NCBI GenBank assembly: GCA_002343075.1
Contig: DDRH01000028.1
Location: 63,719 to 127,718, forward strand
Direction of reading: 5' to 3'
DNA length: 64,000 nucleotides
Origin: Phycisphaerales bacterium UBA2421
GTDB taxonomy: Bacteria; Planctomycetota; Phycisphaerae; Tepidisphaerales; Tepidisphaeraceae
The notes beneath the pieces are model-generated. The model saw nothing but the letters and a program-made list of their open reading frames with translations. It ran no database searches and had not been told where the DNA came from. Below, one piece after another: positions 9,702-47,580 of the stretch (its first letter is position 1; each line of letters starts with the position of its first letter). A program made the position numbers and the translations under genes.

Positions 9702-10958
9702 ATGATCGACCTGCCGCATGTTTCTGATCGCCTTCTGGAGCCCATACGCGAGAAAGTCCTCGCGGGGGCTGACCTTTCGCTGGCGGACGGGGTGACGCTG
9801 TTTAAGACCCGGGATATCCACGGCGTAGGCAGACTGGCGCATTTTGTGCGCACTCAAATGCACGGCGACAAGGCATTCTACAACCGCAACAGGCACATCA
9901 ATTACACCAACGTTTGTGCCCTCTCGTGCAAATTCTGCTCGTTTTACCGCAAGCGCGGCGAAGCGGGCGCGTACGAAATGCCGGTCGAGCAGGTTGTGGC
10001 CACCGCGCGCCGGGCGGCTGATGCGGGCGCGACGGAAGTTCACATCGTCGGCGGGCTGCACCCGTGGCTGAAGTTTGACTATTACCTGAACATGCTCCGC
10101 GGGGTGCGGGCTGAGTGTCCCGCGCTGCACATCAAGGCGTTTACCGCGATCGAGATCATCCATTTCAGCAAGATCGCGCGCGTGAGCGTCCGCGACGTGC
10201 TCATCGCGCTCAGCGATGCCGGGCTGGGTAGCCTGCCCGGCGGCGGCGCTGAGATCTTCGATGACCGGGTGCATGACGAAGTCTTCAAAGGAAAAGTGAG
10301 AGCCGACCGCTGGTTTGATGTTCACCGCACCGCGCACAGCCTGGGTATCTACAGCAATGCGACCATGCTCTACGGGCACGTCGAAACGCTGGAGGAACGC
10401 GTCGGGCATTTGGTGAAGTTGCGAGAACTTCAGCAAGTGTCATTGCGAGAAAGAGACGAAGAGACGAAGAGACGAAGAGACGGAGTGGAAATCAGAAACG
10501 ACACGAATCCTGCTCCCACTTCGTGTCTCCCCGCGTTCTTCAACTGCCTGATTCCCCTGAGCTTCATCCCTGAAGATAGTGAGCTTGGCGCGTTGCCCGG
10601 ACCGACCGGACTGAGCGACCTGCGGACCCTCGCTGTGGCTCGGCTGATGATTCGCAACATTGCCCACATCAAGGCGTTTTGGATCATGCAGGGTGTGCAC
10701 CTTTCGCAACTCGCACTCGACTACGGCTGCGACGACCTCGACGGCACGGTCGTCTGGTACGACATCACCAAGCGCGAAGGCGACCGCGGGACAAATCATC
10801 AGGAACTTCATCTGAACGATATCAAGCGGTTGATTCGTGAGGCAGGGAAGGAACCCGTTGAACGCGACACGCTCTACAATCAGGTCGCCCGGGAACCCGG
10901 TTCCGACCGCGTGATCAATACCAAGTCAATCGTGCCCCGCGTGCCGGTGTCGGTTTAG
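9702..10958 (+). CDS. mqnE: Aminofutalosine synthase MqnE (radical SAM)
   Basis: A 418-residue radical SAM enzyme that joins SAM to the MqnA product, making aminofutalosine in menaquinone synthesis. The [4Fe-4S] cysteines are in YTNVCALSCKFCSFYRKRG (Cys72, Cys76, Cys79). VHIVGGLHPWLKFDYY, SLPGGGAEIF and NATMLYGHVET are strong MqnE/MqnC-family landmarks. The usual LRELQDETGGFQ.FIPLAF loop is interrupted: after LRELQ (residue 244) about 35 residues of repeat-encoded, Arg/Glu-rich sequence precede FFNCLIPLSF. The frame stays open, so the enzyme is probably intact with an extra loop. It ends the menaquinone gene run that starts at 6374. Confidence 0.92.
   Translation: MIDLPHVSDRLLEPIREKVLAGADLSLADGVTLFKTRDIHGVGRLAHFVRTQMHGDKAFYNRNRHINYTNVCALSCKFCSFYRKRGEAGAYEMPVEQVVATARRAADAGATEVHIVGGLHPWLKFDYYLNMLRGVRAECPALHIKAFTAIEIIHFSKIARVSVRDVLIALSDAGLGSLPGGGAEIFDDRVHDEVFKGKVRADRWFDVHRTAHSLGIYSNATMLYGHVETLEERVGHLVKLRELQQVSLRERDEETKRRRDGVEIRNDTNPAPTSCLPAFFNCLIPLSFIPEDSELGALPGPTGLSDLRTLAVARLMIRNIAHIKAFWIMQGVHLSQLALDYGCDDLDGTVVWYDITKREGDRGTNHQELHLNDIKRLIREAGKEPVERDTLYNQVAREPGSDRVINTKSIVPRVPVSV
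10434..10541 (+). repeat. In-frame insertion with 8-bp tandem repeat inside mqnE
   Basis: From 10453 to 10484 there are three exact copies of GAGACGAA and a fourth with one change. Read in rotated form this is GAAGAGAC, the same type of unit as in mqnC (GAAGCGAC). A complementary stretch (CCACTTCGTGTCTCC, 10516-10530) lies about 30 bases downstream, so the segment can fold back partly on itself. The period of 8 means each copy is read in a different frame, yet no stop codon arises. The segment occupies a loop that is about seven residues long in MqnE homologues as I know them. Confidence 0.7.
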
Positions 10959-11171
10959 GCCGTCGGTTGTCGCGTCAATCATCTCCTGGTGACGTCCCCT
11001 GTTTTTTGAGACAAGACAGCAGTTACGGCCGCAAGTGCATATCTGACAACGATTTATGCTGCATACTTTTTCGGTCCAGCCCGTCAGAGTTTGGTCTCCA
11101 ACTTGCCTTTTTGTGTGATTTCAGTACATTGCCCGGCTCGATTTTTCGACCCAAGAGCTTTGGAGATTTGT

Positions 11172-11477
11172 ATGCCCGCGCAAGCCACCGCTACCAAGAC
11201 CGTTCGCGTCACCGTCAGCAAGAACATCACCCGCGATTCGGCGCGCAAGACGATCGAGCGGCTTTTCATGCAAGACAAGGTGTTCGCAGCCCCACTCGTG
11301 GCACGCACCAAGAATTTCAAAGACAACCCCAAGCGCCGCGGGGGCACCATCTGGACAAAACGCGCCAACAAGATTCACCCCGGGCTCGAAAAAGGTGCCG
11401 CGGCCACGATCGCCGCGACCGCACAGCACCTGCGCGATCTTGAGAGCGTGAAGAGTTTTGTGACGGTCGCAAAGTAA
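11172..11477 (+). CDS. Small basic protein of unknown function
   Basis: A 101-residue, strongly basic protein (many Lys and Arg). It opens with a short Ala-rich leader and then KTVRVTVSKNITRDSARKTIERLFM, followed by FKDNPKRRGGTIWTKRANKIHPGLEKGAAATIAATAQHL. It has no signal peptide or membrane segment. Size, charge and the strong hairpin terminator right behind it suggest an abundantly made nucleic acid-binding or ribosome-associated protein, but I do not recognise it as a ribosomal protein and no known motif is clear. GGAG eight bases before the ATG at 11172 supports the start; the frame is open further upstream but lacks this site. Confidence 0.6.
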   Translation: MPAQATATKTVRVTVSKNITRDSARKTIERLFMQDKVFAAPLVARTKNFKDNPKRRGGTIWTKRANKIHPGLEKGAAATIAATAQHLRDLESVKSFVTVAK

Positions 11478-11544
11478 CGCCGCTGGAAATCAACATCGCC
11501 GCCGTCTCTCCGCGACCGGCGAACGCGGCAAAAGAACAATCAGA

Positions 11545-11575
11545 GCCGGACGTGCATGGCGCGTCCGGCATTTTT
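11545..11575 (+). terminator. Rho-independent terminator
   Basis: An 8-bp perfect stem (GCCGGACG / CGTCCGGC) around a nine-base loop is followed by ATTTTT. It lies 67 bases after the stop codon of the small basic protein gene. Confidence 0.75.
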
Positions 11576-11655
11576 CATACTATTCCCAAATATATCGCTG
11601 AGTTTCACCGGAGAAGGCGTGCTGATGCGTTCGTCGCCCGCATGTGCGCCGCTGT

Positions 11656-12078
11656 TCAGTTCGGCTTGCCGCTCAACAGTTCGAGCAGCGTATCGAGGCT
11701 GAACGGCTTCGGCATAAAATTGACGTCGATGGGCAGACCCCGCAGCGCGCCGGCCTCAAAATGTCCGCTGATGGCAATCACCCGGCTCGGGCGATGGCTG
11801 CTGGGCATATCCGACATTTCCTTGATCAGATCAAAGCCGTCTTTATGCGGCATGTGCAGGTCGGTGAGCAGGACGTCAAATCGTTCGTTGAGCAGATAAC
11901 GAATCGCCTCAGAACCATCTCGCGCGGTGACGACTTGCGCACCGGTATCACGAATCAGCCGGCTCATCACCATGCGCGTGGGCGCATGGTCTTCAACCAG
12001 GAGAATTCGTGGAGATGAACTGCGGTGTTTTGCCACCTCAGATGCCGAAGAAGAGAACATTCCGAATCCGCTGCACAT
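11656..12078 (-). CDS. Single-domain response regulator (CheY-like)
   Basis: A 140-residue protein made of one receiver domain after a short Ser-rich leader. The acidic pocket is ILLVED (Glu29, Asp30), the phospho-acceptor is Asp73 in LLTDLHMP, the switch Ser/Thr is in AISGH, and the conserved Lys is Lys124 in MPKPF. There is no output domain, so it signals through protein contacts as CheY or Spo0F do. No histidine kinase is adjacent. The next gene upstream on this strand (bpt) is over 100 bases away and functionally unrelated. Confidence 0.87.
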   Translation of the reverse strand: MCSGFGMFSSSASEVAKHRSSSPRILLVEDHAPTRMVMSRLIRDTGAQVVTARDGSEAIRYLLNERFDVLLTDLHMPHKDGFDLIKEMSDMPSSHRPSRVIAISGHFEAGALRGLPIDVNFMPKPFSLDTLLELLSGKPN

Positions 12079-12186
12079 CTTATTGCGGCTGCGTGGTACA
12101 TCCCGATTTCAGTGAGTTTAACATACGTTTTGATATTGCGTCGTACTTTTTCTTCACGCGCCAGCACCCGACAGCCCGCGTCACGG

Positions 12187-12966
12187 CTAATGGGTGACGC
12201 CTCGCCAGATGCCATCGCTCCAGAGCAACTCACAGGGCTTGTAAGCGATTTTGTAGCTCATTGAGGCTGCGTCAACGACCCAATAGCCCAGATATACGTG
12301 CGGGATCGCATGAACACGGCAGAACTCGATTTCCTGCAGCACACCAAAATGTCCCAGGCTGCGCCGGGGTTGGTCGGGATCGAAGTAGAAATACACACTG
12401 CTGAGCGACTGCTGGCTCAGGTCGCAGATTCCCACCGCCATGAGGTGACCGTTGGGGGTTCGATACTCAAACTCTGCGGTTTCCACCGGCGATTCGTAAA
12501 GAAACTGCTCCAATCCCTCCCGGCTGGCATCCTGCTCACCGTCGTGGCGGCTGTCGAGATATCGCTTGTAAAGAAGGTATTTCTCGTCAGTTAGACTTGG
12601 AGAGGAAACCGAGACGCGCAGATCGGCGTTTCGCCGAACTACGCGCCGCTGGGATTTACTTAGTTCAAATTGTTCAACCGGAATGCGAATCGGCACGCAC
12701 CTGCGACATTTTGCGCACACCGGCTGATAAATCATCCGCCCGCTACGACGGAAGCCGGCGTCCATGAAGCCATGATAGATCGAAGGATCCATCCGCCCCG
12801 CGGCCAGGGCGCGCAGTTGAGCGATTCGAGACGAGTTGTAGGCGCATGCCCCCGCGGGCAGCACGGTCAAGGGCACATCAACCGGCGCGGGAATCGCGGG
12901 GAAGTGAGACCAGTCGTGCGGCGAACAGTGTTCGGCAAACTCTGGCATTTTGAAGAACGCCGTCAT
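12187..12966 (-). CDS. bpt: Aspartate/glutamate leucyltransferase (bacterial protein transferase Bpt)
   Basis: The 259-residue protein matches the ATE/Bpt family, which transfers leucine from Leu-tRNA to proteins with N-terminal Asp or Glu, marking them for ClpS/ClpAP (N-degron pathway). Landmarks are DPSIYHGFMDAGFRRSGRMIY with the following CAKCRRCVPIRIP, which is the conserved Cys cluster, and KSQRRVVRRNADL. FEYRTPNGHLMAVGICDLSQQSLSSVYFYFDPDQ, interrupted by no gaps in the frame, is the GNAT-like core, and the YLGYWV segment closes the domain. The length is usual. The gene stands alone; no clpS is visible nearby. Confidence 0.88.
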   Translation of the reverse strand: MTAFFKMPEFAEHCSPHDWSHFPAIPAPVDVPLTVLPAGACAYNSSRIAQLRALAAGRMDPSIYHGFMDAGFRRSGRMIYQPVCAKCRRCVPIRIPVEQFELSKSQRRVVRRNADLRVSVSSPSLTDEKYLLYKRYLDSRHDGEQDASREGLEQFLYESPVETAEFEYRTPNGHLMAVGICDLSQQSLSSVYFYFDPDQPRRSLGHFGVLQEIEFCRVHAIPHVYLGYWVVDAASMSYKIAYKPCELLWSDGIWRGVTH

Positions 12967-13321
12967 TGATCACCGTCATGGAGTTGCGATTCAACCAGGG
13001 CGATGCTACCTGAGGGGAAAGTACGTATCTCACCGGCCGGGACTGCCATGCGCCTTCTGGCGCGCACTGAGGTGGGCCCTGGCTCGATCCAGATCCCATG
13101 AAATGCCATTTCCGACCTCGACTTCCCGACGATCGCTCCACAGCGACCGTTTGAGCCGAATCACGTCAGCGTCTTCCTGTGCCGCATGCCGCCGATCGCG
13201 GCCGCTCTCTCTGGTTACGTTGAGGCGAAGCAGCCGACTTTTACAGTCGCGTCCAGATGCTCCCGGTACTTTGATGGAGCTTTTTCTGCACGCTCAAAAC
13301 TCCGAGCGATGAATCATGACA
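12967..13321. other. Intergenic stretch between bpt and glyA
   Basis: These 355 bases lie upstream of bpt and downstream of glyA (both on the minus strand). Short open frames exist on both strands, but none has a plausible ribosome site, a recognisable product or codon use like its neighbours. I see no tRNA-like cloverleaf and no strong terminator. It presumably holds the bpt promoter. Confidence 0.4.
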
Positions 13322-14563
13322 TTAATGCGGCATCGGAAACTTCCCCGCAAACGCCGCCACTTCGCTGCGGATTCTGGCCAATTCTGCGGGATCGTCTTTA
13401 GCGCAGATTCCGCGATCAATGAACACCGCAACTTGCTTCATATCCGCCTCCTTCAGTCCGCGGGTCGTCAGTGCGGGTGTGCCCAGGCGCACGCCGCTGG
13501 TGAGCTTGGGCGGCCGCGGGTCGTTGTGGATTGCGTTCTTGTTGCAGATCATCCCCGCTGCTTCCAAGGCCTTTTCGGCATCGGCACCGGTAAAGGCCTC
13601 ATTCTTCGCCCGCAGATCGACCAGCATCAGGTGGTTATCCGTGCCGCCCGACTGCAGCCGATAGCCGGCTGCCATCAGGCCTTCTGCAAGTGCCCGGGCG
13701 TTTCTAACAATCTGCGCTGCGTACGTCTTGAATTCCGGCTTCAGTGCCTCGCCAAATGCCACCGCCTTGGCGGCGATGATATGCATGAGTGGCCCGCCCT
13801 GACTGCCCGGAAATACACTTCGATTGATGAGTTTCGCCAGCTCTTCGCTGTCAGTCATAATCAACCCGCCGCGGGGGCCGCGCAGGGTCTTGTGGGTAGT
13901 GGTTGTGACGACGTGCGCGTGGGGGAACGGCTGTGGGTGCGCCCCACCGACGCACAGCCCGGCGATGTGTGCCACATCCGCCATCAGCAGCGCTCCCACT
14001 TCATCGGCAATCGCCCGGAACTTCGCAAAGTCTATCACGCGCGGATAGGCGCTGTAACCGCAGAGAATCGCCTTCGGCTTCGTCTCTTTCGCCACAGCGA
14101 GCACGCTGTCGTAGTCAAGTGTCTCGGTCTTATCGTCAAGCTGATAATGCGATGGGCGATAAAAGATCGCCGAGGCATTGAGCTTCATGCCATGCGACAG
14201 GTGTCCGCCGCTTGCAAGGTTGATGCTGATAAACGGGTCGCCGGGCTTCATCATTGCCATCATTGCGGCAAGATTCGCATTGGCCCCGGAGTGCGGCTGC
14301 ACATTGGCAAACTGGCAGCCAAAAAGCCGTTTCGCACGATCGATCGCAAGGTTTTCGATCTCGTCGTAGTATCCGCAACCGCCGTAGTATCGTGCTCCGG
14401 GATAGCCTTCGGCATACTTGTTGGTGAGACACGTCCCGGCGGCCTCCATGACGGCTTTGGAAACGTGGTTTTCGCTGGCAATCAGTTCGAGGGTGCTTTC
14501 CTGCCTGCGGGCCTCGGCATCGATCAGTTCTGCGATCTTCGTATCTGAATCTTTCAAAGTCAT
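13322..14563 (-). CDS. glyA: Serine hydroxymethyltransferase
   Basis: A 413-residue PLP enzyme that interconverts serine and glycine and loads tetrahydrofolate with one-carbon units. It shows the SHMT hallmarks: [41 protein letters not shown], and the PLP-lysine site [25 protein letters not shown] is close to the C-terminus. Length and motif order are standard. I started it at the ATG at 14563, which gives the family's usual N-terminus ([17 protein letters not shown]). An in-frame extension to 14692 overlaps the divergent gene and is not family-like. A 410-codon open frame on the opposite strand is only a mirror of this gene. Confidence 0.96.
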
Positions 14564-14618
14564 GGGCAGAATTGTATCCCATCCCGGCCCGGCTGTCAGT
14601 TGGTAAGATAGAACAACG

Positions 14619-16772
14619 ATGGATCGACGCGTCCACAACCAAGGCGATATCCGCGCCAAAGCAATCGTTGGCATGCTGCTCGCCGCGAGCACGGCGATTA
14701 TTGCGGGAGTTTACCTGCACAACCGTCCTGCGCCGGAGCCTGTCGCCTCAACCCAACCCGCGACGGCAACTTCGCCGGCGACCGCCCCTCGACCAGCCCC
14801 GCCGCCCGACCCGCCAGCCGTGACTTGGATGGATGTCGTTCACCGCAACAACAAGTCGGTCGCCACCACCCAGCCGCTCAATTTTCCGGTCGATCTTCGC
14901 GATGCAGCCCGGCTGATCGTCGCCGACCCGGTTTACCTCTGCCCTCGCGGCGATTTGTGGGTGACCCGCGCCGATGCCGAACCCACGCCCGGAATCATCA
15001 AGAACGCGGCCCGCCAGCAGGTGCATGTGCTTCGCGAACAGGTCCTGTTTGTACAGTGGAATTTTACGGGCGGGGGCGCGTCGCCCGTGCTGGTGGTGCG
15101 AGAAGGGGACAACCTGATTCGCCTGGATCGAAATGGACGCGAGCCGATTCCGTTCAGGCGACAGTATGACTGGGCCCGCGCGTTCACATGGCTGGATAAG
15201 GTGCTGGTGCCGGCCGGAGATGGAGCGTCGGTCATCGATCTCCACGCGCTCACCGAAACGCACGTGCCGCTGCCGTCGTCGGAAGCCTCGGCGGCAGATC
15301 CTTCGCCCATCAGAATCGTGCTTGACCCGCGCGGCGTCCTTGCCTGGCGCGTAAACGGCCCGGCGGCACGATTTTTGGATGGGAAGTGGTCGCCGTTGAA
15401 CGATCCCGCTGCGTGGCCGCCGCGCGTCGTAGAGTTAATCCCCATGCTCGATGGAAGTGTGGTGCAACTGCTGCGCGCACCAAGGCCGGCCGCCGGTCTC
15501 GATGCGGCGATGCAAGAATCGATCGAACTTGCCAGCACTTCACTCGCTTTGGGCATCGATGCGAGCGCGGCCGTAGACGAACCCGCTATCCTGAAACTCG
15601 TTGGACAGCTTTCCGATGATGACGCCAAGCTGCGCGATGCCGCCTCCGCCGAGCTATCGCGGTACGGCCCGGCCATCTGGTCAATCCTCTCGCGCGAACG
15701 ACCTCGCCAACCACTCGAAGGCCAGGGCCGAATCGATGAGCTGCTCGCATCACAGGCCAGGCCCAAGCTAGGCCGGCTCTCGCCCGTCAGCGACGATCTA
15801 CAAACCGCCGGCTATCTCCGCGACGGCGGTGTGGTTTTGTACTCCAGCGCCGGAGTTGAAGTGGGTCGCGGCGGCAACGAGACTCGACTCGAGGCTCCCG
15901 CATGGATCGCTATTCGCCCCGGCCGCTCGGTTCGGCTGCTACCTCCCAGGCTTGTGGCCGATGCACAGCCCGGCAAGACTCGATTCGAGGCGTGGGGCGA
16001 CGAGTGGATCGTCAACGACGATCTCTCCGGGCCGCGCCGGAACATGGGCAACCATCTCATGCCACTCATCAACGAAGACCTGCGAAGGTTTGACACATTT
16101 CAAGGCATCGACGCGCGTGGCCGCTGGCTGCTGCGAGACACGCAGACCAGCGAGACGCTCGTTATCGATCCGTTCATCGCCGATGAAACACCGCGCTTGC
16201 CCGTCTGGTCGATTACGGTCGCCGAGGGGGCAACCGGATGGAACGACCAGGATTGGCCGGTGCAAAAGTCCGGCGGGGCCTGGGCGCTGGCTGAAGACCG
16301 TTGGCAGGTGATGAAGGATGACGAGCCGATGCGCACCTATGTAATTGAGGACGCTCCCGCCACAACGCCCGCCGAGACGGTCTTGCTCACCGAGGCCGAT
16401 GGAACGACTTGGTTTGACGGAGAAACGCACCTCCGTTTTCGCCGCGGGGAGGTCGGGACCGATTACGAACTGCCGCCGGAGGCACTCGGTTCGGGCCACG
16501 CAACACTCATTCGCGCTGCGGGGCGGCTTTTCTTGTTCAATTCGCCTGGCCGGGTGCTTCGCTTTCGAGAAACACCTGGCTCATCTGAGCCGCTCAAGCT
16601 TGAAGCCGTCTTCACACAAGGCGTGCCGCTGACCGACGAACCGGCGCGAATCTGGCTCGATCCCGCGGGGCGAATCGTGATGGCTTACGGGCAGAACAAG
16701 CTCGCGATCATGTTCCCCGAGGGAAGGGTTCCACCCAGCATTGCGAAAATGATGCCCGCCGAACAGGAATAG
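14619..16772 (+). CDS. Large membrane-anchored protein of unknown function
   Basis: I do not recognise this 717-residue protein. It has one hydrophobic segment near the start ([19 protein letters not shown], residues 15-33), then a Pro/Ala/Thr-rich linker (about 35-65), so it is probably anchored with the rest outside the cytoplasm. The body is strand-rich, with repeated short blocks such as [11 protein letters not shown] and [10 protein letters not shown] and several value-at-a-position phrases, reminiscent of a beta-propeller without a clear repeat signature. A helical patch near residues 325-380 ([22 protein letters not shown]) looks HEAT-like. It is divergent from glyA across 55 bases. 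Confidence 0.6.
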
Positions 16773-16882
16773 TGCTCCGGCAGTTTATTCGTGGGCAGTT
16801 TACCGGTTTCGCTACTCTGCGCATTGACATTTCACGCCTTGGCATCAACATTCGCCAATTCGCGAGCGCACTGCAAGAACTC

Positions 16883-17374
16883 ATGTCTATTCATCGCCCC
16901 ATCGCCGCAAGCCACCGCATCCCGACCGACGCACGGGTTGCCATCGTCGCGGCGCGGTTTAACGGACGCTTTGTCGATGAGTTGTTGCGCGGCGCGACTG
17001 ATCGGCTGAAGGTTCATGGGCTGGACGGCGATCGCGTGGAGATTCACCGTGTGCCGGGCGCTTTCGAGCTTCCGGTTGCGGCGAAACAGTTGATCGATAC
17101 CGGACGTTTCGGCGCGGTGATTTGTCTCGGTTGTGTCATTCGTGGCGAAACAGCGCATTTTGAGTATGTGGCCGGGGAAGCAGCGCGGGGTATACAGCAG
17201 GTGGCCGTCAGCACCGGCATCCCGATCATCTTCGGGGTGCTTACGACAGAGAACGAAGCACAAACCCTGGACCGTCTCGGCGGTGCCCACGGCCACGCCG
17301 GCGAAAGCGCCGCCGACGCCGCGGCGGAAATGCTGGCACTGCGCGAGCAAATCGCCGCGGGCAAGCAGTTCTGA
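16883..17374 (+). CDS. ribH: 6,7-dimethyl-8-ribityllumazine synthase
   Basis: The 163-residue protein is lumazine synthase, which condenses the ribityl-uracil with dihydroxybutanone phosphate in the second-last step of riboflavin synthesis. Landmarks are VAIVAARFNGRFVDELL with its aromatic stacking residue, VPGAFELPVAAKQL, the CLGCVIRGETAHFEYV stretch with the phosphate-binding RGET and catalytic His, and IIFGVLTTENEAQTLDRLGG. I chose the ATG at 16883, which gives a normal-length protein. It heads a ribH, unknown, nusB, ftsY order; ribH next to nusB is common in bacteria. Confidence 0.95.
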   Translation: MSIHRPIAASHRIPTDARVAIVAARFNGRFVDELLRGATDRLKVHGLDGDRVEIHRVPGAFELPVAAKQLIDTGRFGAVICLGCVIRGETAHFEYVAGEAARGIQQVAVSTGIPIIFGVLTTENEAQTLDRLGGAHGHAGESAADAAAEMLALREQIAAGKQF

Positions 17375-17559
17375 TCCTCGCCCATGCGACGCTTATCGGA
17401 CGCCGACGCATCCTCACCCACACGGCGACTGCGCAGAAAATGCCACATTCTAAGTCATGCCGACGTGTTATCGGACGGCAGTTTGTGTGTTGAACTCACC
17501 CTGCATCAAAGCCTTGCAGAATCATCAATTACGATCATCAACTGGCCGATAACAAGGCT

Positions 17560-18513: not shown

Positions 18514-18633
18514 CCTCTCCCAGCATTCCTGCGTGAGTCTGACGTTTGCTCGCACGGTCGGCGGAACATGGCCTGGGCGGTTGTTCGGGCGTCGATGCTG
18601 CAAGTTGAGCATACACCGCCTATACTGCTGCTC

Positions 18634-19080: not shown

Positions 19081-19126
19081 CCGCGACTCTGCCTCTCGTG
19101 TCCGTTGTCTACGATCCGTAACGAAA

Positions 19127-20068: not shown

Positions 20069-20182
20069 CCCAGGATTTTGCGGTTCGGACGGTTTCCATT
20101 AGACTGAATTTCATAATTTGGTGTTTGCCGGATGATGCTTTTAGCCGATTCCATTAATAAACCGAGCGGGGAAGTACGCGAC

Positions 20183-37732: not shown

Positions 37733-37753
37733 ACGCGTTGTTCTTGCCCTGCA

Positions 37754-38533: not shown

Positions 38534-38577
38534 CGTGCACCCTTTGCATTGGCCATATGGCTTAACCCGTTGAAATA

Positions 38578-38605
38578 CTGACATTTCATTCGCGATTGAT
38601 ATACT
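38578..38605 (+). promoter_or_regulatory. Candidate sigma-70 promoter for the BI-1-like gene
   Basis: CTGACA at 38578-38583 and TATACT at 38600-38605 are 16 bases apart, each one mismatch from consensus. They lie 68 bases before the ATG of the BI-1-like gene in an AT-richer patch. Confidence 0.5.
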
Positions 38606-38672
38606 TCCGCTGGTTGCTGCCGCGCACGGGAATCGTGGTAGCCAGCCACTTTCTCAGGGAAGGACCTTTTTT

Positions 38673-39395: not shown

Positions 39396-39451
39396 AAGCA
39401 CCCGCCGAGCCACGACCGCCGAAGAGCAAGCCAACACGCGCTACGACGACA

Positions 39452-39483
39452 AAAAGCCCCGGGCAATTCTGCCCGGGGCTTTT
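39452..39483. terminator. Strong bidirectional terminator
   Basis: A 14-bp perfect stem (AAAAGCCCCGGGCA / TGCCCGGGGCTTTT) with a four-base loop, A-rich before and T-rich after, sits between the plus-strand BI-1 gene and a minus-strand gene. It can stop transcription from both sides. Confidence 0.92.
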
Positions 39484-39527
39484 CTCTCAATTTGAATGAC
39501 AATCACCGCACTCGGTGCGACGACAGT

Positions 39528-40088
39528 TTACTTCGCATCAACCGCAGTCACTTCCATGGTTGTGTTGCTGGCCATCGCGCCGGTGGTGCTGCTCACGGTC
39601 TTGAGCATCATGCCGGGCACATCGGTGCTGGTCCACACCTTGGCTACGATCTCCATGCCATTCTGATTACCGGTCGACTCGATCACCTTCGCAGCATAAT
39701 CCTTGCCGGCGATGGTGACATTTTCTTCGCTTTCCTTCACTTCAAAACCGGCCTTCTTGGCTTCTTCAACCGGCGTGCCTTGTCCCTCGGGTGCCTTGGC
39801 TGGAATCTCGAGTTTCTGCGCCGGCGTGTCCATGGTGTTGCCCATCATGGTCATCTTGTTCTTGATCTCGACGACCACCTTCTCGTCAGACTTTTCCAGG
39901 AGGGTCTGGGTGATTTCCATCTCCGTCTTCTGGCCAGCCGCTTCGGTGACACCCTTGATGGTCACGCTCGAGCCGACACCATGCTTGGCCCATGAATCGT
40001 ATTGCGGGCTGTTTTCTGCCCGAGCCCACGACGCACCGATCGCCAGACACGAAACGGCAGCAAGTGAGAGAATTTTCGAAAGACGCAT
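39528..40088 (-). CDS. Small secreted protein of unknown function
   Basis: A 186-residue protein with a clear signal peptide (MRLSKILSLAAVSCLAIGASWARA, cut after residue 24). The mature part is strand-rich and rich in Thr, Lys and Glu (VTIKGVTEAAGQKTEMEITQTLLE). It has no transmembrane segment and no lipobox. I do not recognise the family; the style (a single domain asking how a substrate changes) resembles periplasmic DUF-type proteins. It ends at the shared terminator, and hldE begins over 300 bases further on. Confidence 0.6.
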   Translation of the reverse strand: MRLSKILSLAAVSCLAIGASWARAENSPQYDSWAKHGVGSSVTIKGVTEAAGQKTEMEITQTLLEKSDEKVVVEIKNKMTMMGNTMDTPAQKLEIPAKAPEGQGTPVEEAKKAGFEVKESEENVTIAGKDYAAKVIESTGNQNGMEIVAKVWTSTDVPGMMLKTVSSTTGAMASNTTMEVTAVDAK

Positions 40089-40417
40089 GTGTTCTCCTAA
40101 CAGAGTTTTTTGGAACGCATTTTCCGCCCACCATCACCGCCGGACGTCCGGGCTGACGAGCGCGTGCCTTAAGGGCGACAATCACCCCGGGGCAGGATCA
40201 TCATTGCGAGACGATCCGCCCAAAGCCCGGCATTCTCGTTGAAAAATGGGTGAGCAGCAATTCCAGGACATTTTCGCCCGGCCGACCGCGAGCGCCATTG
40301 CTCACGATTTAACCGCCGGGCGTTCATAAGACATAGCAGAACCGGAAAGGTTGGCGGGTGCAAGCGATGCGATAAATTATGCGATGTCGTTCACCCCAAA
40401 CTCGGCTCGGCGGGAAG

Positions 40418-41899
40418 CTATCTGTAAGCGTCCACAATCCGCTGAATGACGTTGGATGTGCTTTTCCCATCGATCAGCGGGGCGAGCGCGACCTTACCGC
40501 CGCGCGCTTCTACAATCTCCCAGCCGACGACGTTTTCTTTGGTATAATCTGCCCCTTTTACCAAAACGTCCGGCTGAATCGCCTCGATGAGTTGCAGCGG
40601 CGTGTCTTCGTCGAAACGGATGAGGTAGTCGATGCTCTCTAACTCCTCAAGCACGCCCACCCGGTCGGCTTCGTTGATCACCGGTCGCTTTTCGCCCTTC
40701 AGCCTGCGGATGGACGCGTCAGTGTTCACACCCACCACCAGCACATCGCCTTGACGCTTGGCAAACTGAAAATACTTCACATGCCCCAAATGGATGATAT
40801 CGAAACACCCGTTGGTAAACACCATCCGTTTGCCTGCGGCGCGGTGCAGTGACAACTCCTGCAGCAGCGGCTCCAGCTTTCGCTCTTTTCCCAGGTGGCC
40901 GTGCACTTCGGTCATCAGTTCCTGAAGGATTTCGCCCGGGCTGACGGGCACGGCACCAAACTTCTCCACTTCCAGCCCGCCGGCGAGGTTGGCCAGCGTG
41001 ACCGACTCGCTCCAGTCGGCCCCGGCAGCGCGTGCCACGGCGAGCATGGCGAGCACCATGTCGCCCGCTCCGGTGACATCAAACACCTGTCGCGCCTTGG
41101 TGTGCAACCACCGCCGCTGGCCGTCGGTGGTGGCTAGGTACGCCCCGTCCTTGTCGAGGGTGACGACCGCACAATCTACATTCAGCGCCGCAAGCAGCCG
41201 GTCGCCTGCCTCGCGAAACTGCTCTTCTGTGCGCGGCGCGATGCCAGTTGCCCGCTTGGTTTCTGTACGGTTGAGCTTGATGCAGGTTGCCCCGGCGTAC
41301 TTTGAATAGTCTGGAATATTGGCCGGATCGATGAGCGTGGCCTTGCCGTGTCTTCGCGCGAGTTGAATTGCCGCCTGGCACAGCCGCGGGGTGACGACGC
41401 CCTTGTTGTAGTCCTCAATGCAGAACACATCGCACGCGGGCATTAGGCGCTCTAGCTGCTGAAACAAGGCATCTTCGACATCAGCCGACACTGCAGCCGC
41501 GTTCTCGCTGTCGAGCCGGAGCATGGTTTGGGGATGCCGGTGCTGGGCCGAACCCACGAGCCGCATCTTGCAAGTCGTTGGTCTGTCAGCACTTGCAACC
41601 AATCCAGTGGTTTCCGCGCCGATGGATTGAAGCTCGCGCGTGAGCCGAAGCGCCACCTCGTCGGCCCCGACAATCCCCACCACGCTGACCGTCGCGTTTA
41701 ACGCCGCCAGGTTCGCCGCGACCGACCCCGCCCCGCCCAGTCGCCACTCTTCATTCTGAAAATGGAGCACCGGCACCGGCGCCTCGGGCGAAAGCCGCTC
41801 GGCGTTGCCGTAGACGTAGCGATCCATCATAAAGTCACCCAGCAGAAGAACTTTGCTCTGCGGGAGATTCTCGATGAGATCAATCAGGCGCGTGGACAT
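40418..41899 (-). CDS. hldE: Bifunctional heptose kinase/adenylyltransferase HldE
   Basis: The 493-residue fusion performs two steps in ADP-heptose synthesis for LPS. The N-terminal PfkB-type kinase (about residues 1-325) phosphorylates heptose 7-phosphate; it shows LLLGDFMMDRYVYG, the GGAGSVAANLAALN sugar site and the DVTGAGDMVLA anion hole with catalytic Asp. The C-terminal nucleotidyltransferase (about 350-490) has the HxGH-type motif TNGCFDIIHLGHVKYF, and ends GKSTSNVIQRIVDAYR. Both halves look complete. Together with the heptosyltransferase-like gene at 33.3 kb it argues for a heptose-containing LPS. Confidence 0.94.
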   Translation of the reverse strand: MSTRLIDLIENLPQSKVLLLGDFMMDRYVYGNAERLSPEAPVPVLHFQNEEWRLGGAGSVAANLAALNATVSVVGIVGADEVALRLTRELQSIGAETTGLVASADRPTTCKMRLVGSAQHRHPQTMLRLDSENAAAVSADVEDALFQQLERLMPACDVFCIEDYNKGVVTPRLCQAAIQLARRHGKATLIDPANIPDYSKYAGATCIKLNRTETKRATGIAPRTEEQFREAGDRLLAALNVDCAVVTLDKDGAYLATTDGQRRWLHTKARQVFDVTGAGDMVLAMLAVARAAGADWSESVTLANLAGGLEVEKFGAVPVSPGEILQELMTEVHGHLGKERKLEPLLQELSLHRAAGKRMVFTNGCFDIIHLGHVKYFQFAKRQGDVLVVGVNTDASIRRLKGEKRPVINEADRVGVLEELESIDYLIRFDEDTPLQLIEAIQPDVLVKGADYTKENVVGWEIVEARGGKVALAPLIDGKSTSNVIQRIVDAYR

Positions 41900-42022
41900 G
41901 AAGACAAAATCCTACAGGTGTTCAGCTCAAATCGTAACCGCACGCTTGTCACCAACACTTCCCTCTTGTGATGTCCCCCTCCTGCTTCGTGCGCGCCTCT
42001 GCGGTGAATGGATCGCCTTTGC

Positions 42023-43120
42023 CTAAAGCGTGTTCAGATAATCGATCAATGCTCTGAACCGCCCCTGATCTTTCTTGTTGAAACCGAACACCAGCCGCGG
42101 CATGTGGGCCAACGGTTCTTCCTCGGCCTCGACGGGCAATGCCGCGGTAACGCGATATTCGCTGCCCCCCGGAGAAACGATATCGGAGAATTTTCCCTTT
42201 ATGTCGGCCAACTGCGCGTCGGACGGCGCGCGTTGCAGGCGAATGATCACGTCGTCGCGGAAGTATCGCACGCTGTGAAAATTCTTGTAGAAATTCACAA
42301 CCTCTTCGACTGCGGCGTCGACGCTATCGGTGATCTTGTAGAGGTGAAAATCCTCTGGGCTGATTAGTTTTCTGCCGAGCAGGTGGGTTTTGACATATTC
42401 CTGCCACGCCGTCCAAAACTGTCCCCCGGGCCGATCGACCATGACAATAGGCATGGGGGTGCTCTTGCCCGTCTGGATAAGCGTTAGAACCTCAAAGCCT
42501 TCATCCATCGTGCCAAACCCTCCGGGAAAGAGCACGACCGCGTGGCTCGATCGCAAGAACATCAGCTTGCGGGTGAAGAAATACTTAAAATTGATGAGTT
42601 TGGGATCGTCGGCGATGAATTCGTTGGTCTTTTGTTCAAACGGCAGGCGGATCGCCAGCCCGAAAGAAGGATCGCGCCCCGCCCCGCCGTGCCCGGCAGC
42701 CATGATCCCTCCACCGGCACCCGTAGTCACCATCCACTTCTTCTCCGCCATCTTCCGGGCAAACTCGGCGGCGGCGATATAGTCCGGATCGCTTTCTGGC
42801 GTGCGCGCCGAACCGAAAATGCTCACCTTGCGCACGTCGCGATAAGGCACAAAAATCTTCAGTGCATAGCGCAATTCCTTAAACGACCGGTTAACCAGCT
42901 TGATATCGCCGCGATTGGAACCGTCGCGAAGCAGCTTCAGTGAGTTGGCCACCAACTCAGCGATCAGGTCACCGTCTTCCAGCTTCTTGAGTTCCTCGAC
43001 CAGCTTGTTGGCCGCATTATGAACTTCCGAAAACTCCGCCTGCGTAGGCAGCCTCGGCCGCTCTGCGGTTTCGCTGGATTGTTCGATCGTGGGGTTGTCG
43101 GTGGTATCAGATTCTTTCAT
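42023..43120 (-). CDS. LOG-family Rossmann-fold protein (TIGR00730-like)
   Basis: The 365-residue protein contains the LOG/lysine decarboxylase-like Rossmann core: [34 protein letters not shown] and the signature [24 protein letters not shown] (PGGxGTxxE). Some members hydrolyse nucleotide 5'-monophosphates such as cytokinin ribotides to free base and ribose phosphate. It is longer than the typical 180-200 residues, with an N-terminal helical extension of about 95 residues and a C-terminal region of about 90, as in the larger subgroup. The substrate is unknown. Confidence 0.8.
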
Positions 43121-43248
43121 GCGTTCCTGAAAAGATTGCGAACCGCGGCAAAGTACCCGGAACGCAACGGCAAATCAAAATCGTGCCCACGAACACCCGC
43201 GCGGTCGGCACTCGATTCGCCCGGACGATCCTCGTATCATCCGCAGCC

Positions 43249-43692
43249 ATGAACAAACCAGTTTTATTCACACTCGCCCTCGCAGCGATCGCAATGACTT
43301 CGTATCTGTTCGCAGAGCCAGCGACACAACCATCGGGAGACAAAGTGACTACACCATCGGGCCTGACGATCATTACCACCGAAAAGGGCGGCGATTATGT
43401 TACGCAAGCGGGCGACCATGTTTGGGTGCACTACGCCGGTCGGCTGGAGGATGGCACCGAGTTTGACAACTCGATGAAGCGCGGTGACCCGATCGACCTT
43501 ACACTTGGGCAGGGCAGAGTGATCGCCGGGTGGGAAGAAGGACTGCTCGGCATGCGGCTCGGCGAAAAGCGGCAGTTGATCATTCCGCCGGCGCTAGGTT
43601 ACGGCGAACGGGGAGCCGGTGGCGCGATTCCACCCAATGCGACGCTGATTTTCGATCTTGAGCTGGTTGGCGTGCGGAAGGGCAATCGGTAA
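43249..43692 (+). CDS. FKBP-type peptidyl-prolyl cis-trans isomerase, exported
   Basis: A 147-residue protein with a signal peptide ([22 protein letters not shown]) and one FKBP domain (about residues 38-143). It shows [76 protein letters not shown], in pieces, with the aromatic pocket residues kept. It would speed proline isomerisation in the envelope. The ATG at 43249 gives the signal peptide; an open frame extends upstream into the divergent LOG gene region. Confidence 0.93.
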
Positions 43693-44246
43693 GTCGACGC
43701 GGCGGAGCAAGGCGAGCGCGATCCGCAGCGATGCCCGGCTACGCGGTGACGCCCGCGAGGTGGCCGGCGCGGCAAAGCTGCAAGATTGCCCGCGCACAGG
43801 CGATGCTGCGAGAACGGCGGTATCCCGCGAGGTGCAAAATCATTACTGCCGACCTGAAATCTCGGGTTGACGATCTGTAAAATCAGTATTGACAGACGCT
43901 TACGCCCTGTGTGGCCTGGCGCACATATTTCTGTGGTTTTGCAAGATTATTCTTGCAATGCTCACCGCAGACGCTAGTATCTAGAGATCACCTCGGGTTT
44001 TTCTGGCATAACCCGTTGAAGTGTGTCGCGTCAAAGTAGCACCTCAGTAATGACGTGACAGAATGTTTGAACGAAGTTTCAAATTGAGCGGCGCGTTTTC
44101 CGATTCTGGTCGGTCGATGCGTCCTGAAGTTCGTTTCTGAGGTGATTCGATTGCTCGTGTTCTCTTGCGTTAGGGGTGCAGGAGGCTGGCACGGACGGTC
44201 GCTTAGGAGAAACTGCGTAAGCCCCGTTTAAGGATGAGGGAGAGTT
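43693..44246. other. Long leader region before the PEP-CTERM gene
   Basis: These 554 bases hold no supported gene. The second half is unusually AT-rich and contains a 20-bp palindrome at 43939-43958. The PEP-CTERM gene's ribosome site (GAGGGAGAG) lies at the end. The length suggests regulated expression. Confidence 0.45.
43939..43958. promoter_or_regulatory. Palindrome upstream of the PEP-CTERM gene (candidate operator)
   Basis: Two perfect 8-base arms (TTGCAAGA / TCTTGCAA) are separated by TTAT. The whole lies in an AT-rich patch about 290 bases before the PEP-CTERM gene. The size and symmetry fit a dimeric regulator; it could also be an RNA hairpin in a long leader. Confidence 0.4.
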
Positions 44247-44942
44247 ATGATGAGCAAAGTTTCTAAGCTTATGATCGCCGCGGGAGCGGCGCTGCTCGGC
44301 TTGGCTTCGGCCTCGCAGGCGGCGTTTGTCCCGTGGACGCAGCCCAGCGGCACGGTGCCCGGGCTGTTCAGTTACTCGAACGGCGGTAGCTCGGATGGCC
44401 TCTTCGGCAATCCAATCATCGTCGGATCGAGCTTCACCTTCTTCCCGACTAACTTCAAGGCACAAACGGTTGCCGGCGCAGCGGGTCATCTTGACTCACG
44501 CCTGTCGTTTCAGATTGATGTCGCCCCCGGCGCCATCGATCTGCTGAGCGTTTCAGTTACCGAACTCGGCGACTACACGATCAGCAACGGCGGTAACGTG
44601 CAGGCACTGGCCAGCTTGTTCCTGACCAACCTTGAACAGCCGATCAGCCTGCCGGGCAACCCGCAGACTGGTTCAGATTCGTTCCTTCGCAGCGTTGCAG
44701 CACCCACGACCGAATCAGGTCAGTGGACGCTCAACGTCGTGAAGACGCTTCCGAACGGCTGGAAGTCGGTCCGCTTCGACCTTGATAACGTGCTTGATGC
44801 AAGCGTCCCCGGCGCTGGCAGCTCGGCGTTTATCGAGAAGAAGATCGGTGGCGTCACGATCACCATCAACGTTCCCGAGCCGACTTCGATCGGCGCTGCC
44901 CTTCTGGGCATGGGCGCGCTGGTGATTCGCCGCCGCAAGTAA
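44247..44942 (+). CDS. PEP-CTERM sorting domain protein
   Basis: The 231-residue exported protein has a signal peptide (LMIAAGAALLGLASASQA, about residues 8-25) and ends in a PEP-CTERM tail: VPEPTSIGAALLGMGALVIRRRK (about 209-231), i.e. the PEP motif, a membrane helix and a basic end. That tail is the exosortase substrate signal, so the protein is probably cut and delivered to the surface or matrix. The middle is strand-rich and Gly/Ser/Thr-rich with no known enzyme motif. No exosortase gene is in the window. Confidence 0.88.
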   Translation: MMSKVSKLMIAAGAALLGLASASQAAFVPWTQPSGTVPGLFSYSNGGSSDGLFGNPIIVGSSFTFFPTNFKAQTVAGAAGHLDSRLSFQIDVAPGAIDLLSVSVTELGDYTISNGGNVQALASLFLTNLEQPISLPGNPQTGSDSFLRSVAAPTTESGQWTLNVVKTLPNGWKSVRFDLDNVLDASVPGAGSSAFIEKKIGGVTITINVPEPTSIGAALLGMGALVIRRRK

Positions 44943-45023
44943 TCTTGTCTTGCTGAGCCGTTACTTCGCTGTAGCGTTTCAGCCAGATTCGATTTTCAGT
45001 GCAACTCAACATTGCAACAGACT

Positions 45024-45059
45024 AGAACCCCGTCGAGAAATCGACGGGGTTCTTCGTTG
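45024..45059 (+). terminator. Rho-independent terminator after the PEP-CTERM gene
   Basis: A 13-bp perfect stem (AGAACCCCGTCGA / TCGACGGGGTTCT) closes on GAAA, an especially stable tetraloop, and is followed by TCGTTGG. The T-run is short but the stem is very strong. Confidence 0.8.
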
Positions 45060-45143
45060 GGGGGTTCTTTGCTGAACAGAATTGCAGAACCGGTATCGGT
45101 TCAGGTTTGGTGACCACCGGGGAAACACGCCTGCTATCGCCGC

Positions 45144-46040
45144 CTACCGTGCCGTTGGCATCACCGCCGCCCGCAGCCAATCCATCGGCGGGGAGTGGCG
45201 GCCGCATTCGGGGCATGGGATGGCCTCATACTGCGCCTGGCAATGTGGACAAGCCCCCGCTGTCGCCACCATGTCGAATTGCTGCCCGCAGGCGTCGCAT
45301 CGCCAGCCCGGCACTGCAGGAGGATGACTACCGCAGCCAGGACACGCTGCGTGCCGGTGCCTCGGCAGATTTTCCCATTTCATGCCCGCGCGCGCCCGCT
45401 GAAAGCCTGCGAGCGATTGCCAGAGCGCGAAGCCCGCCATCACGCTCAGCCAGATCATTGCCAGCCGGAGCGAGATCAGCAGGCCCACCGCGCTTGCCGC
45501 CACACCGATCATGGAAGCAATCAGCAGGCTATTGGTTGGCCCGATCATGAACCACAAAATCGAGCGCAATATCTGCCCGCCGTCGAGGGGATAGACCGGC
45601 AGCAGGTTGAAGACGAGTAGAGCGATGTTAATGACCGCGATGATGAACAGAAATTCGCCAAGGTTGCCGCGGGTTTCACCGAAAACGCCGCCGTTATAGA
45701 GCCACGCTGCAGCGACCGTGGGTGCGATGAGAATGACATTGACCAACGGGCCTGCAACAATCGACCAGAGATGCGCCCCCGGTCGCGGCGGCGGTTGCAC
45801 AAATGCCACCCCGCCGAGGGGCCAGAGCATAATCGTGTCCGCACGCCCGCCGGCCTGCCGGCAGGCCAGGGCATGTCCGAATTCATGCAGCAGAACAATC
45901 AAAAACAACGTCAAATACTCCGCCGCCGCCCAGCCGACATGGGAATATGTGTCGTACCGAAGCTTCAACTGAAAATAAGCGATGATCGCCCACGTCCAGT
46001 GCAGGTAAACATTGATCCCCCGAAACGCAAAGATTTTCAT
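45144..46040 (-). CDS. Site-2 protease (M50) with C-terminal zinc ribbons
   Basis: The 298-residue membrane metalloprotease has the zinc site LHEFGHALACRQAGG and the second site LLPVYPLDGGQILRSIL (NPDG-type, read here as PLDGG), with about six helices, typical of site-2 proteases that cut proteins inside the membrane. Unusually, the last 70 residues carry four Cys pairs (CPGC, CDAC, CPHC, CPEC), i.e. two zinc ribbons likely on the cytoplasmic side. The ATG at 46040 fits homologues; an ATG at 46061 is possible. Confidence 0.82.
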   Translation of the reverse strand: MKIFAFRGINVYLHWTWAIIAYFQLKLRYDTYSHVGWAAAEYLTLFLIVLLHEFGHALACRQAGGRADTIMLWPLGGVAFVQPPPRPGAHLWSIVAGPLVNVILIAPTVAAAWLYNGGVFGETRGNLGEFLFIIAVINIALLVFNLLPVYPLDGGQILRSILWFMIGPTNSLLIASMIGVAASAVGLLISLRLAMIWLSVMAGFALWQSLAGFQRARAGMKWENLPRHRHAACPGCGSHPPAVPGWRCDACGQQFDMVATAGACPHCQAQYEAIPCPECGRHSPPMDWLRAAVMPTAR

Positions 46041-46125
46041 CGCTCCAGACGGCGTAGGCATGTCACTATGTTAGGCATCAATCGTTCTGGCGACAGGACC
46101 ATTCGCCCGCATCACGCCGGAAGGC

Positions 46126-47580
46126 TTACTGCAACAGCGGCAACTGAACTTTCACATTTCGATCGGCCCCATCATCCAGGCCGGGCGCGGCACCGATGAA
46201 TTCTTTGTCGATCCTAGCGACGTTGCGAACGCGCGGCTGCGCGGGCGGTTGCAGGTCTGGCGAAGTCGGGCCGTCGTGGCGGGCCAACACGTTGTAGTAT
46301 TGATCCCGCTGGGCCGGAATCCACCCGGCGTCGCGAATCAGGCGGCAGATTTCTCTTTCTTCCAGCTTGTACGTCGTCCCGGCGGCGCTGACGACGTTTT
46401 CTTCCATCATCACGCTGCCCATATCGTTTGCCCCGTAAAAAAGCGCCAGTTGGCCAATCTTCGGGCCCATCGTCACCCAACTGCTCTGCAGGCTCTTGAT
46501 ATTGTCAAAATAGAGCCGTGCGATGGCGAGGATGCGCAGATACTCATCGGCCCCGGCCATTCGCACCACCCGCCCACGCAGAATGTCTTCATTATCGCTT
46601 TCATCAAACGGGCCATGCACATCAGGATCCCACTCCGCGGCACGACCAAGCGGCGTGTTTTCCCGCTGGAAGGGCCAATGAATGAAGGCGGTGTAAGAAC
46701 CTGGTAAGGGCGATGAAGCGACGGAGCGACGAAGGAACGAAGGGAACTCAGACCGCGCAAAAACGCCAGGCCAAAGCCGCATCACTTCACGCACGCGATT
46801 CTCAACCTCTTCCCCTCCGTCGCTCCGTCGCTCCGTCGCTTCGTCGCTTCCCAGCGCCAGCGCATAATCCTGCATATCCCGCAGCGCCGACATATGTTCG
46901 ATCCGCTCGCGCACAAACTCGATGTGGCCCATCATCATTGTGCAACTGGTGTTGAGGCCCTCTTCATGCGCGACGCGCATCACGCGCAGCCAGTCGTCGC
47001 CGGTTGCCTTGCCGATGCCGATACGCCGCCGGATGCGCGGCGAGAAGATCTCCCCCCCGCCGCCGGGAATGGTCATCAGGCCGGCGGCCTTGAAGCGACG
47101 AATGATGTCGCGAACATCCATCTGAAAAAACCGCTCAAACTCCACAAACTCCGGCGGGCTGAACGCATGGATATGCACCGTCGGAAACTCGGTGCGGATG
47201 TACCGCAGCAAATCCTCATACCACTCGATCGGCAAAGCGTCATTCATCCCCCCCTGCATGAGAATCTGCGTCCCGCCGATACCAACCAACTCTTTGATCT
47301 TCTCGCCGATGACATCGAACGACAGGGTATAGCTGTCTGTGTCTTCATGATCGCGACGGAAGGCGCAAAACGTGCACTTGGCGGTGCAGACATTGGTGTA
47401 ATTGATATTGCGGTCGATGACGTAGGTGCGGTAATCCTGCGGGTGCAACCGCTGCGTAACCGCGTGTGCCCACTGGCCCAGGTCGTGCAGGGAGGCGCGC
47501 TGATGAAGCTCCATCGCCTGCGCATCCGTCAGCCGCGCGGTGCCAGCGATGATCGGGTCGATATCAAAACTCAGTTTCAT
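46126..47580 (-). CDS. mqnC: Cyclic dehypoxanthinyl futalosine synthase MqnC (radical SAM)
   Basis: A 484-residue radical SAM enzyme that cyclises dehypoxanthinyl futalosine in menaquinone synthesis. The cluster cysteines are in YTNVCTAKCTFCAFRRD (Cys65, Cys69, Cys72). ILMQGGMNDALPIEWYEDLL, VHIHAFSPPE, MTIPGGGGEIFSPR and MMMGHIEF are diagnostic. In place of the usual short loop after LRDMQD, about 55 extra residues (239-295) precede YTAFIHWPFQRENT. The extra part is coded by repeat-rich DNA. The C-terminus runs about 45 residues past most homologues. The start at 47580 gives a standard N-terminus. Confidence 0.92.
   Translation of the reverse strand: MKLSFDIDPIIAGTARLTDAQAMELHQRASLHDLGQWAHAVTQRLHPQDYRTYVIDRNINYTNVCTAKCTFCAFRRDHEDTDSYTLSFDVIGEKIKELVGIGGTQILMQGGMNDALPIEWYEDLLRYIRTEFPTVHIHAFSPPEFVEFERFFQMDVRDIIRRFKAAGLMTIPGGGGEIFSPRIRRRIGIGKATGDDWLRVMRVAHEEGLNTSCTMMMGHIEFVRERIEHMSALRDMQDYALALGSDEATERRSDGGEEVENRVREVMRLWPGVFARSEFPSFLRRSVASSPLPGSYTAFIHWPFQRENTPLGRAAEWDPDVHGPFDESDNEDILRGRVVRMAGADEYLRILAIARLYFDNIKSLQSSWVTMGPKIGQLALFYGANDMGSVMMEENVVSAAGTTYKLEEREICRLIRDAGWIPAQRDQYYNVLARHDGPTSPDLQPPAQPRVRNVARIDKEFIGAAPGLDDGADRNVKVQLPLLQ
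46696..46866. repeat. In-frame inverted-repeat insertion inside mqnC, with 8-bp tandem units
   Basis: Two arms of 37-38 bases (46710-46746 and 46810-46847) are inverted copies with about 31 of 37 positions matching, separated by 63 bases. Each arm is itself a row of 8-base units: in the coding direction GAAGCGAC twice, GGAGCGAC twice, then GGAGG. The same kind of unit (GAAGAGAC) fills the mqnE insertion. The frame stays open across both arms and the spacer, adding about 55 codons to the enzyme. Confidence 0.8.

Follow-up and report, generated by a model that had tools for sequence, protein, structure and literature searches.

The genes mqnE and mqnC of Phycisphaerales bacterium UBA2421 (assembly GCA_002343075.1) each carry tandem arrays of related short units at the same loop of the encoded enzymes. 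Both genes lie within a stretch of 64,000 nucleotides of contig DDRH01000028.1 (positions 63,719 to 127,718), hereafter the window. We conclude, from sequence comparison, that these arrays probably belong to a family of inverted-array elements. They are likely to be gene-less copies of the arms of elements whose complete members encode a protein of the 23S-rRNA-IVP family (PF05635; hereafter IVP), retained at loops that tolerate extra residues. Genomes, contigs and loci are referred to below by our own G, C and L numbers, the present genome being G000.

How are the two genes and their arrays built? Gene mqnE (9702..10958, plus strand) encodes the radical SAM enzyme aminofutalosine synthase (TIGR03700, 443 bits, above cut-off), and mqnC (46126..47580, minus strand) encodes cyclic dehypoxanthinyl futalosine synthase (TIGR03699, 428.8 bits). 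Close homologues of this MqnC bear the names Tepidisphaeraceae or Phycisphaerae. In both the array stands between an LR-x-x-Q helix and an F/Y-x-x-F-I-P/H strand. The first-pass annotation of this DNA had reported related units at one homologous loop of the two genes, in the same orientation, and the arrays of GAAGAGAC in mqnE and GAAGCGAC in mqnC bear this out. It had also proposed mapping the insertion onto a structure: the loop has 35 residues in this MqnE and 5 in the solved MqnE 6xi9. An in-frame insert of about 28 codons separates SL from PAFFN in the native loop of mqnE (10446..10529, plus strand), as judged from loop lengths and the 6xi9 alignment; its ends were set from relatives with loops of 5–6 residues and are accurate to a few codons. 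Within it the array arm, AAAGAGAC(GAAGAGAC)3 GGAGTGG (10450..10488, plus strand), has no strong inverted partner. The left, or sense, arm of mqnC, (GAAGCGAC)2(GGAGCGAC)2GGAGGGG (46812..46850, minus strand), is identical to the mqnE arm at 33 of 40 aligned positions. The earlier inventory was sound for this pair and incomplete beyond it, having overlooked a second, inverted mqnC array at 46715..46746. That right arm reads GAAGCGAC GGAGCGAC GAAGGAAC GAAGGGAA on the plus strand, the reverse complement of the left arm, and the pair gives a strong RNA fold (z −5.0). Across the window the double unit GAAGNGACGAAGNGAC is matched ten times with up to two mismatches; 0.64 matches are expected, and none of 100 shuffles reaches ten.

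The two mqnC arms enclose a conserved native core, WPGVFARS (46750..46773, minus strand), which family members have whether or not they carry arrays. An alignment of 40 MqnC sequences shows W270–V273 to be nearly invariant and F274 and S277 invariant, and two variable runs with sharp bounds surround this core. A middling AlphaFold model of MqnC (mean predicted local distance difference test score 64), made from 40 rows picked from at least 120 homologues, places the insert between helix 223–244 and strand 297–301, with a confident helix at 256–269 by the core; we build no further claim on it.

Are the arrays confined to these two genes? A search of the whole genome, likewise proposed in the first-pass annotation, shows that they are not. 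With three units and up to two mismatches, the 4.47 Mb in 67 contigs gave 41 pattern matches at 14 places on 7 contigs, and the reversed-pattern control gave 2. Besides mqnE and mqnC the places are dnaE (three), carB (two), metH, three genes that we take to be pilin-type, an open reading frame (ORF) of no known kind on C53, a site beside an ORF on C6 that we take to be sugar-epimerase-like, and C66:36231. Read inwards, the arms have 4–5 units, several with a terminal GRAGG(G). One 38-nucleotide arm, AGAGCGAC(GAAGCGAC)2GGAGCGACGAAGGG, is identical in dnaE, in the second pilin-type gene and in an IVP element of G019, a member of another genus.

It is the dnaE copy that links the arrays to a protein. 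Inside this genome's own dnaE, inverted GAAGCGAC arms enclose a gene matching PF05635 at 116 bits; the match covers residues 1–98 of the 102 of the protein, and no other Pfam family matches. The IVP gene is overprinted in a second frame at positions 5020–5550 of L031 (C66), inside a dnaE open frame of 1344 aa that spans positions 3480–7514 of L031 on the minus strand. Pfam scans of DnaE, MqnE, MqnC, CarB and MetH revealed no Hint or splicing domain such as an intein would have.

Three further features of this genome may be set beside these. The three pilin-type genes are consecutive (L032:3700–8040, C59) and have their arrays at the leader, before the likely processing site, so that leader residues are array-encoded. 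The dnaE product has repeat-like stretches at residues ~170–215 and ~365–400 (RNLKPEIRINNEARM... and EAPRHGKG...CLRALAPSC) resembling relics of other array families. A near-identical GATGAATGATGAATTATGAATGATGA repeat (L237–L246 and others) occurs at many genome places, mostly without an inverted partner.

Do IVP genes in general stand between inverted arms? PF05635 matches were found in 43 of the 51 genomes searched, this one included. With a threshold score of at least 30 and 300 nucleotides of flank, 42 of 50 IVP loci near this genome have inverted arms, as do 59 of the 75 testable loci among the best 80 of 588 named loci (the other five having too little flank), which come from many phyla and include isolates. 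Mismatched pairs of flanks reach the threshold in 2.0% of cases among relatives and 2.2% among named loci, and sliding windows in 2 of 631. With 400 nucleotides of flank, five of five cyanobacterial plasmid loci checked, of 23 records found, also have arms, of heptamer units; two pairs are close copies, so that about three are independent. A first arm scan used 250 nucleotides and omitted L103, which has no flank; L103 and L132 are absent from the count of 50, and L144 was assigned its strand manually. Tandem Repeats Finder identifies 183 of 200 arms as arrays, with period 7 (140), 8 (38) or 9 (5). The copy number has a median of 4.7 and a tail to about 11, and for this reason we dropped the idea of a fixed repeat number. 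Two solved structures of the family, 2gsc and 2rld, each contain five chains, and a Xanthomonas family member is described as a homopentamer (PMC4990558).

The loop that holds the arrays in mqnE and mqnC can be followed through relatives. Among 62 open frames of MqnC/MqnE type (L044 and L081 truncated), every array of period 7–8 with at least 3.4 copies falls in this loop, apart from L089, a distant gene with two arrays upstream of its likely start. Site preference, one of two explanations offered in the first-pass annotation, is thus supported in the sense of a permissive loop. Counting this genome, arrays are found there in 10 of 22 mqnC and 4 of 23 mqnE genes, and their motifs vary between genomes. 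The loop is long in 20 of 20 readable MqnC proteins of the family; loops of only 5–6 residues occur in 7 of 21 matched mqnE sequences (this genome and 20 relatives, G010 being unmatched). That annotation had held that a long, repeat-rich loop with unrelated DNA in most relatives would signify convergence of low-complexity sequence. Half of this is what we find, the MqnC loop being long throughout and arrays recurring in it; plain convergence, however, leaves unexplained the match of several motifs to the arms of IVP genes described below.

Within a genome the two variable spots of mqnC pair with one another. Over 20 genomes (this one included, truncated G005 left out and G010 unmatched) the mean reverse-complement score of left and right spots is 23.2 within a genome and 12.7 across genomes, a difference equalled in none of 20000 permutations; the direct-repeat control gives 13.2 and 11.9. 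Clear inverted pairs are those of G000 and G019 (GAAGCGAC), G001 (AGGACTG), G007 (GAAGGAT), G009 (GATTGCC) and G020 (GGGTATC), the other mqnC genes having only one array, arrays that do not resemble each other, a palindrome of another kind or no such feature. In G003 the mqnE gene has a pair of the GAAGGCAC type, and the mqnC gene shows that motif too. The mqnE genes of G001 and G022 (L078, L079) have two nested inverted pairs, GACGCGGG outside and TGCAAAG inside, and look as if one element had entered another. The left spot of mqnC in G021 (L058) contains just one palindrome, GCCGGTGGTCTT..., from another repeat family; the same loop is therefore used by other elements too.

If the arms belong to IVP genes, do arm motif and protein vary together? 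Among relatives (n = 41; L124, orthologous to L122, was dropped before the correlations) protein similarity and arm similarity correlate with r = 0.32, reached in none of 5000 permutations, and reversed arms give −0.04. Where protein similarity exceeds 0.55, 50% of pairs have like arms; where it is below 0.25, 4% do. With the named loci added (n = 100) r is 0.19 (0/2000 permutations), arms being alike in 64% of pairs above 0.65 and 5% below 0.25. The correlation tells us that a gene and its arms are passed on together; since it could come from the relatedness of whole elements, it does not yet show that the protein reads the arm.

A match with IVP arms is also seen for gene-less arrays of mqnC. 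In four of six genomes the mqnC motif matches the arms of an IVP gene of the same genome (7 of 720 permutations do as well), with only part of the IVPs of these genomes examined. At a larger scale, four copies of GAAGCGAC, with at most one mismatch, occur in 13 of 298 genomes of the class, this one included, spread over five families. Genomes with such arrays more often have an IVP of the matching clade: the L037-like IVP scores higher in 12 array-positive genomes than in 24 array-negative genomes, our own choice from the same families (Mann–Whitney 3e-5), and it reaches at least 105 bits in 8 of the 12 and 1 of the 24 (Fisher 1.3e-4); the 105-bit line was fixed after the scores were known, and the Mann–Whitney test is independent of any line. 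Two loci at contig ends, L249 and L256, were given an assumed position for scoring; L249 and L141 are one locus, with arms that score 76. The L037-like IVP of array-negative G054 has a GGGCATC-like unit.

Is the overprinting of dnaE peculiar to this genome? Among 25 loci examined, 19 IVP genes lie inside same-strand open frames, 14 of them in dnaE. L257 has only an opposite-strand frame and was not counted, and L277, L150, L149, L262 and L260 have no open frame as scored; L113, L252 and L263 additionally have opposite-strand frames. In all 19 the host frame is on the IVP strand, at offset +2, and free of stops across the IVP gene. Of 123 IVPs outside such frames, 7 have no stop in the +2 frame and 15 none in one of the reverse frames; chance openness would therefore not favour +2. 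A single offset in every IVP within an ORF suggests that the host frame reads through the IVP gene. Like the anatomy, the pairing and the clade-level co-occurrence, the frame rule itself is plain from the sequences. The 14 dnaE cases are not independent, and independent hosts number six at most. The other hosts are an N6/N4 methylase (L152), two Eco57I-type methylases (L177, L270), an acetyltransferase-like frame just below the Pfam cut-off (L115) and a frame without a Pfam match (L264). The three methylase-hosted IVPs belong to unrelated bacteria and follow the same frame rule as dnaE. In G107 (C4) two sites of a single dnaE region are each occupied by an L037-like IVP gene: L254 stands at a second dnaE site and L277 at the first, about 1.5 kb away.

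Units without stops should enter an open frame more easily. Twelve of 101 arms have no stop triplets on either strand, and these include five of the six in-ORF IVPs in the set. In this genome 17 of 19 checked rows (of 43 matches) of stop-containing ATGA-type arrays have no long open frame across them, and the other two are one place adjoining its IVP gene.

How might such a system work? Gene-carrying members encode the four-helix IVP between mirror-image arms of 7–8-nucleotide units. Gene-less arm copies would spread through the genome and be kept only where extra in-frame residues are harmless. Each IVP may recognize its own unit on the single-stranded or hairpin form of the arm, every subunit of the five-chain assembly perhaps binding one, and so help to copy or place arms. 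The GAAGCGAC, GAAGAGAC and GAAGGCAC units, free of stops in six frames, would enter genes in frame more easily, and stop-containing units would need altered copies to do so. The arrays of mqnE and mqnC would coincide because a permissive loop is common to both genes, in a genome that hosts GAAGCGAC elements or presumably once hosted GAAGAGAC elements. Where arms surround native sequence, as in mqnC and C-terminal dnaE, one arm might have been copied over the segment by fold-back, which is a guess. Movement, the binding of units and excision are what we infer from these patterns.

Several observations weigh against this explanation. In mqnE the array has a poor inverted partner (inverted score 16) and a weak fold (z −0.87), and none of the three IVP genes of this genome has GAAGAGAC arms; in mqnC, simple insertion does not explain arms that surround native sequence. 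At the threshold 8 of the 50 near loci and 16 of the 75 testable among the best 80 of 588 named loci lack arms. The 59 named loci from that best 80, taken alone, give a weak correlation (r 0.11, 3/2000), and the reversed-arm control is as high (0.10). The mqnC motifs of G007 and G009 match no own IVP arm (5 of 6 and 5 of 8 IVPs tested). Of the eight array-positive genomes with the L037-like IVP, only G019 has GAAGCGAC arms on it; most of the others have GAAGNNAC sister units (GC, AG, CC, GG) and G112 has GGGAAC, so that exact unit matching fails there. Stop-containing motifs occur in the mqnC of G001, G004 and G007, and L152, an in-ORF IVP, has stop-containing arms. The elements of L122 and L124 occupy one orthologous place, and that pair yielded no empty site. 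We found no filled and empty pair among close strains and no target duplication, the relatives with mqnE loops of 5–6 residues being too distant for an exact junction to be read. Finally, 13 of the 14 dnaE elements are apparently at one site, LGML-T-CI-x-KCF / IPPEDPAVYDM (both ends read in ten elements, L113 read separately), with different arm motifs; many of them may therefore be one old insertion with a changed arm motif.

This last point leads to the rival that survives best: old resident insertions, inherited vertically at a few permissive sites, whose motifs turn over in concert in place, for example by fold-back copying, with little or no movement. The apparently single dnaE site shared by 13 genomes of several families, the orthologous L122/L124 locus and the mqnC arms around native sequence speak for it. 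It accounts less well for the same motif in unrelated genes of one genome, for the patchy distribution over families of the 13 genomes in 298, and for IVPs that have other hosts (three methylase genes and an acetyltransferase-like frame) or stand apart from any long open frame. We consider it unlikely, if a serious rival.

Could the arrays have grown by slippage in disordered, tolerant loops, with the shared motif a coincidence or a bias of base composition? Their confinement in MqnC and MqnE to a hypervariable loop, the differing motifs between genomes and the presence of one array or two unlike arrays in some loops (G003, G013, G004) fit such drift. Slippage would not be expected to give inverted pairing within genomes, the 38-nucleotide arm identity at several loci, the match to own-genome IVP arms or the nested pairs in the mqnE of G001 and G022. 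On the pairing, the arm identity and the IVP-arm match we reject plain low-complexity convergence as the main cause, and drift of this kind seems improbable.

Less probable still is that a function of the mRNA hairpin, in pausing, timing of folding or RNase III control, maintains the inverted arrays, the loops being incidental. The mqnC fold is strong and pairing is retained while motifs change, and according to PMC4990558 the intervening sequence (IVS) stem of Coxiella 23S rRNA is cut by RNase III. But a strong hairpin, true of mqnC, fails as a common feature in mqnE, whose array lacks a pairing partner; 12 of 22 mqnC genes (one truncated) have no array, and cutting a coding mRNA would presumably break the message. 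The weakest rival is the other explanation of the first-pass annotation, gene conversion between mqnE and mqnC through paralogue similarity: same loop, same orientation and arm identity speak for it, and we reject it as very improbable, since the 150-nucleotide flanks, whose comparison that annotation had proposed, are only weakly alike (local scores of 19 and 15), the two units have different bases at positions 5–6 (AG and CG), and arms of this kind are found in several unrelated genes. Two units that differ suggest separate events. Nor is copying between the genes needed, the loop being the usual array site of this gene family, in a genome that carries the element.

How do the proposed IVP elements and their gene-less arms compare with known systems? 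Among the closest is the IVS of 23S rRNA in Coxiella and Leptospira, in which an S23/IVP ORF of the same PF05635 family lies between complementary ends. In Coxiella the IVS has a terminal stem of 28 bp, and heptamers (GACAGAT) are tandemly repeated ahead of the ORF (PMC4990558). A PF05635/S23 ORF is present in the dnaE element and absent from the mqnE and mqnC arrays; a stem of complementary ends is found in mqnC and most IVP elements and is lacking in mqnE. Unlike the 23S IVS, the elements here are in protein-coding genes (mqnE, mqnC, dnaE, carB, metH, pilin-type) and elsewhere, with tandem-array arms that tend to track the IVP, an open second frame in ORFs, and gene-less arms at other places. 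REPtrons, of the REP-RAYT system, are similar in arrangement: inverted repeats flank a gene, and palindromic copies without it occur at other places, in some cases within ORFs (PMC3733652). They differ in their protein, RAYT being an HUH tyrosine transposase and the protein of the dnaE element a match to PF05635 only, and in their repeats, which are single palindromes of 20–40 bp, ours being tandem 7–8-mers.

Rickettsia palindromic elements are likewise palindromic inserts kept in frame in protein genes; they are not known to have a cognate protein gene or a tandem-array build. The short tandemly repeated repetitive sequences of cyanobacteria are heptamer tandem arrays at many places. So are the TAACTGA repeats of Beggiatoaceae, mostly intergenic direct repeats, for which the excerpts of PMC4679880 do not mention IVP/S23 genes. 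The plasmid S23 genes of cyanobacteria described above, all five with heptamer inverted arms, differ from both. PF05635 also resembles Avd, the accessory protein of diversity-generating retroelements, according to PMC10053308, and the likeness to those retroelements lies in this resemblance. Among openly licensed PMC papers, no title or abstract opening that we found ties PF05635 genes to inverted tandem arms outside rRNA.

More broadly, and with more doubt than conviction, we suggest that these are selfish elements spread across Bacteria with a code between protein and repeat. An IVP pentamer would read about four to five of its own 7–8-nucleotide units, one per subunit, and protein and arms would co-diversify. 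Arms without a gene would be mobilized in trans and enter essential enzymes at surface loops. In dnaE, where the gene-carrying form is overprinted, host ribosomes would translate across the IVP gene in a second frame that is fixed. To our knowledge IVP proteins have no established role outside retroelements. If the arms are their cognate sites, a puzzling protein family, tandem heptamers and odd repeat peptides in conserved enzymes would become one system. The IVP would then be a modular, natural repeat-reading protein, and its gene, in dnaE, a selfish gene kept in the second frame of a polymerase gene.

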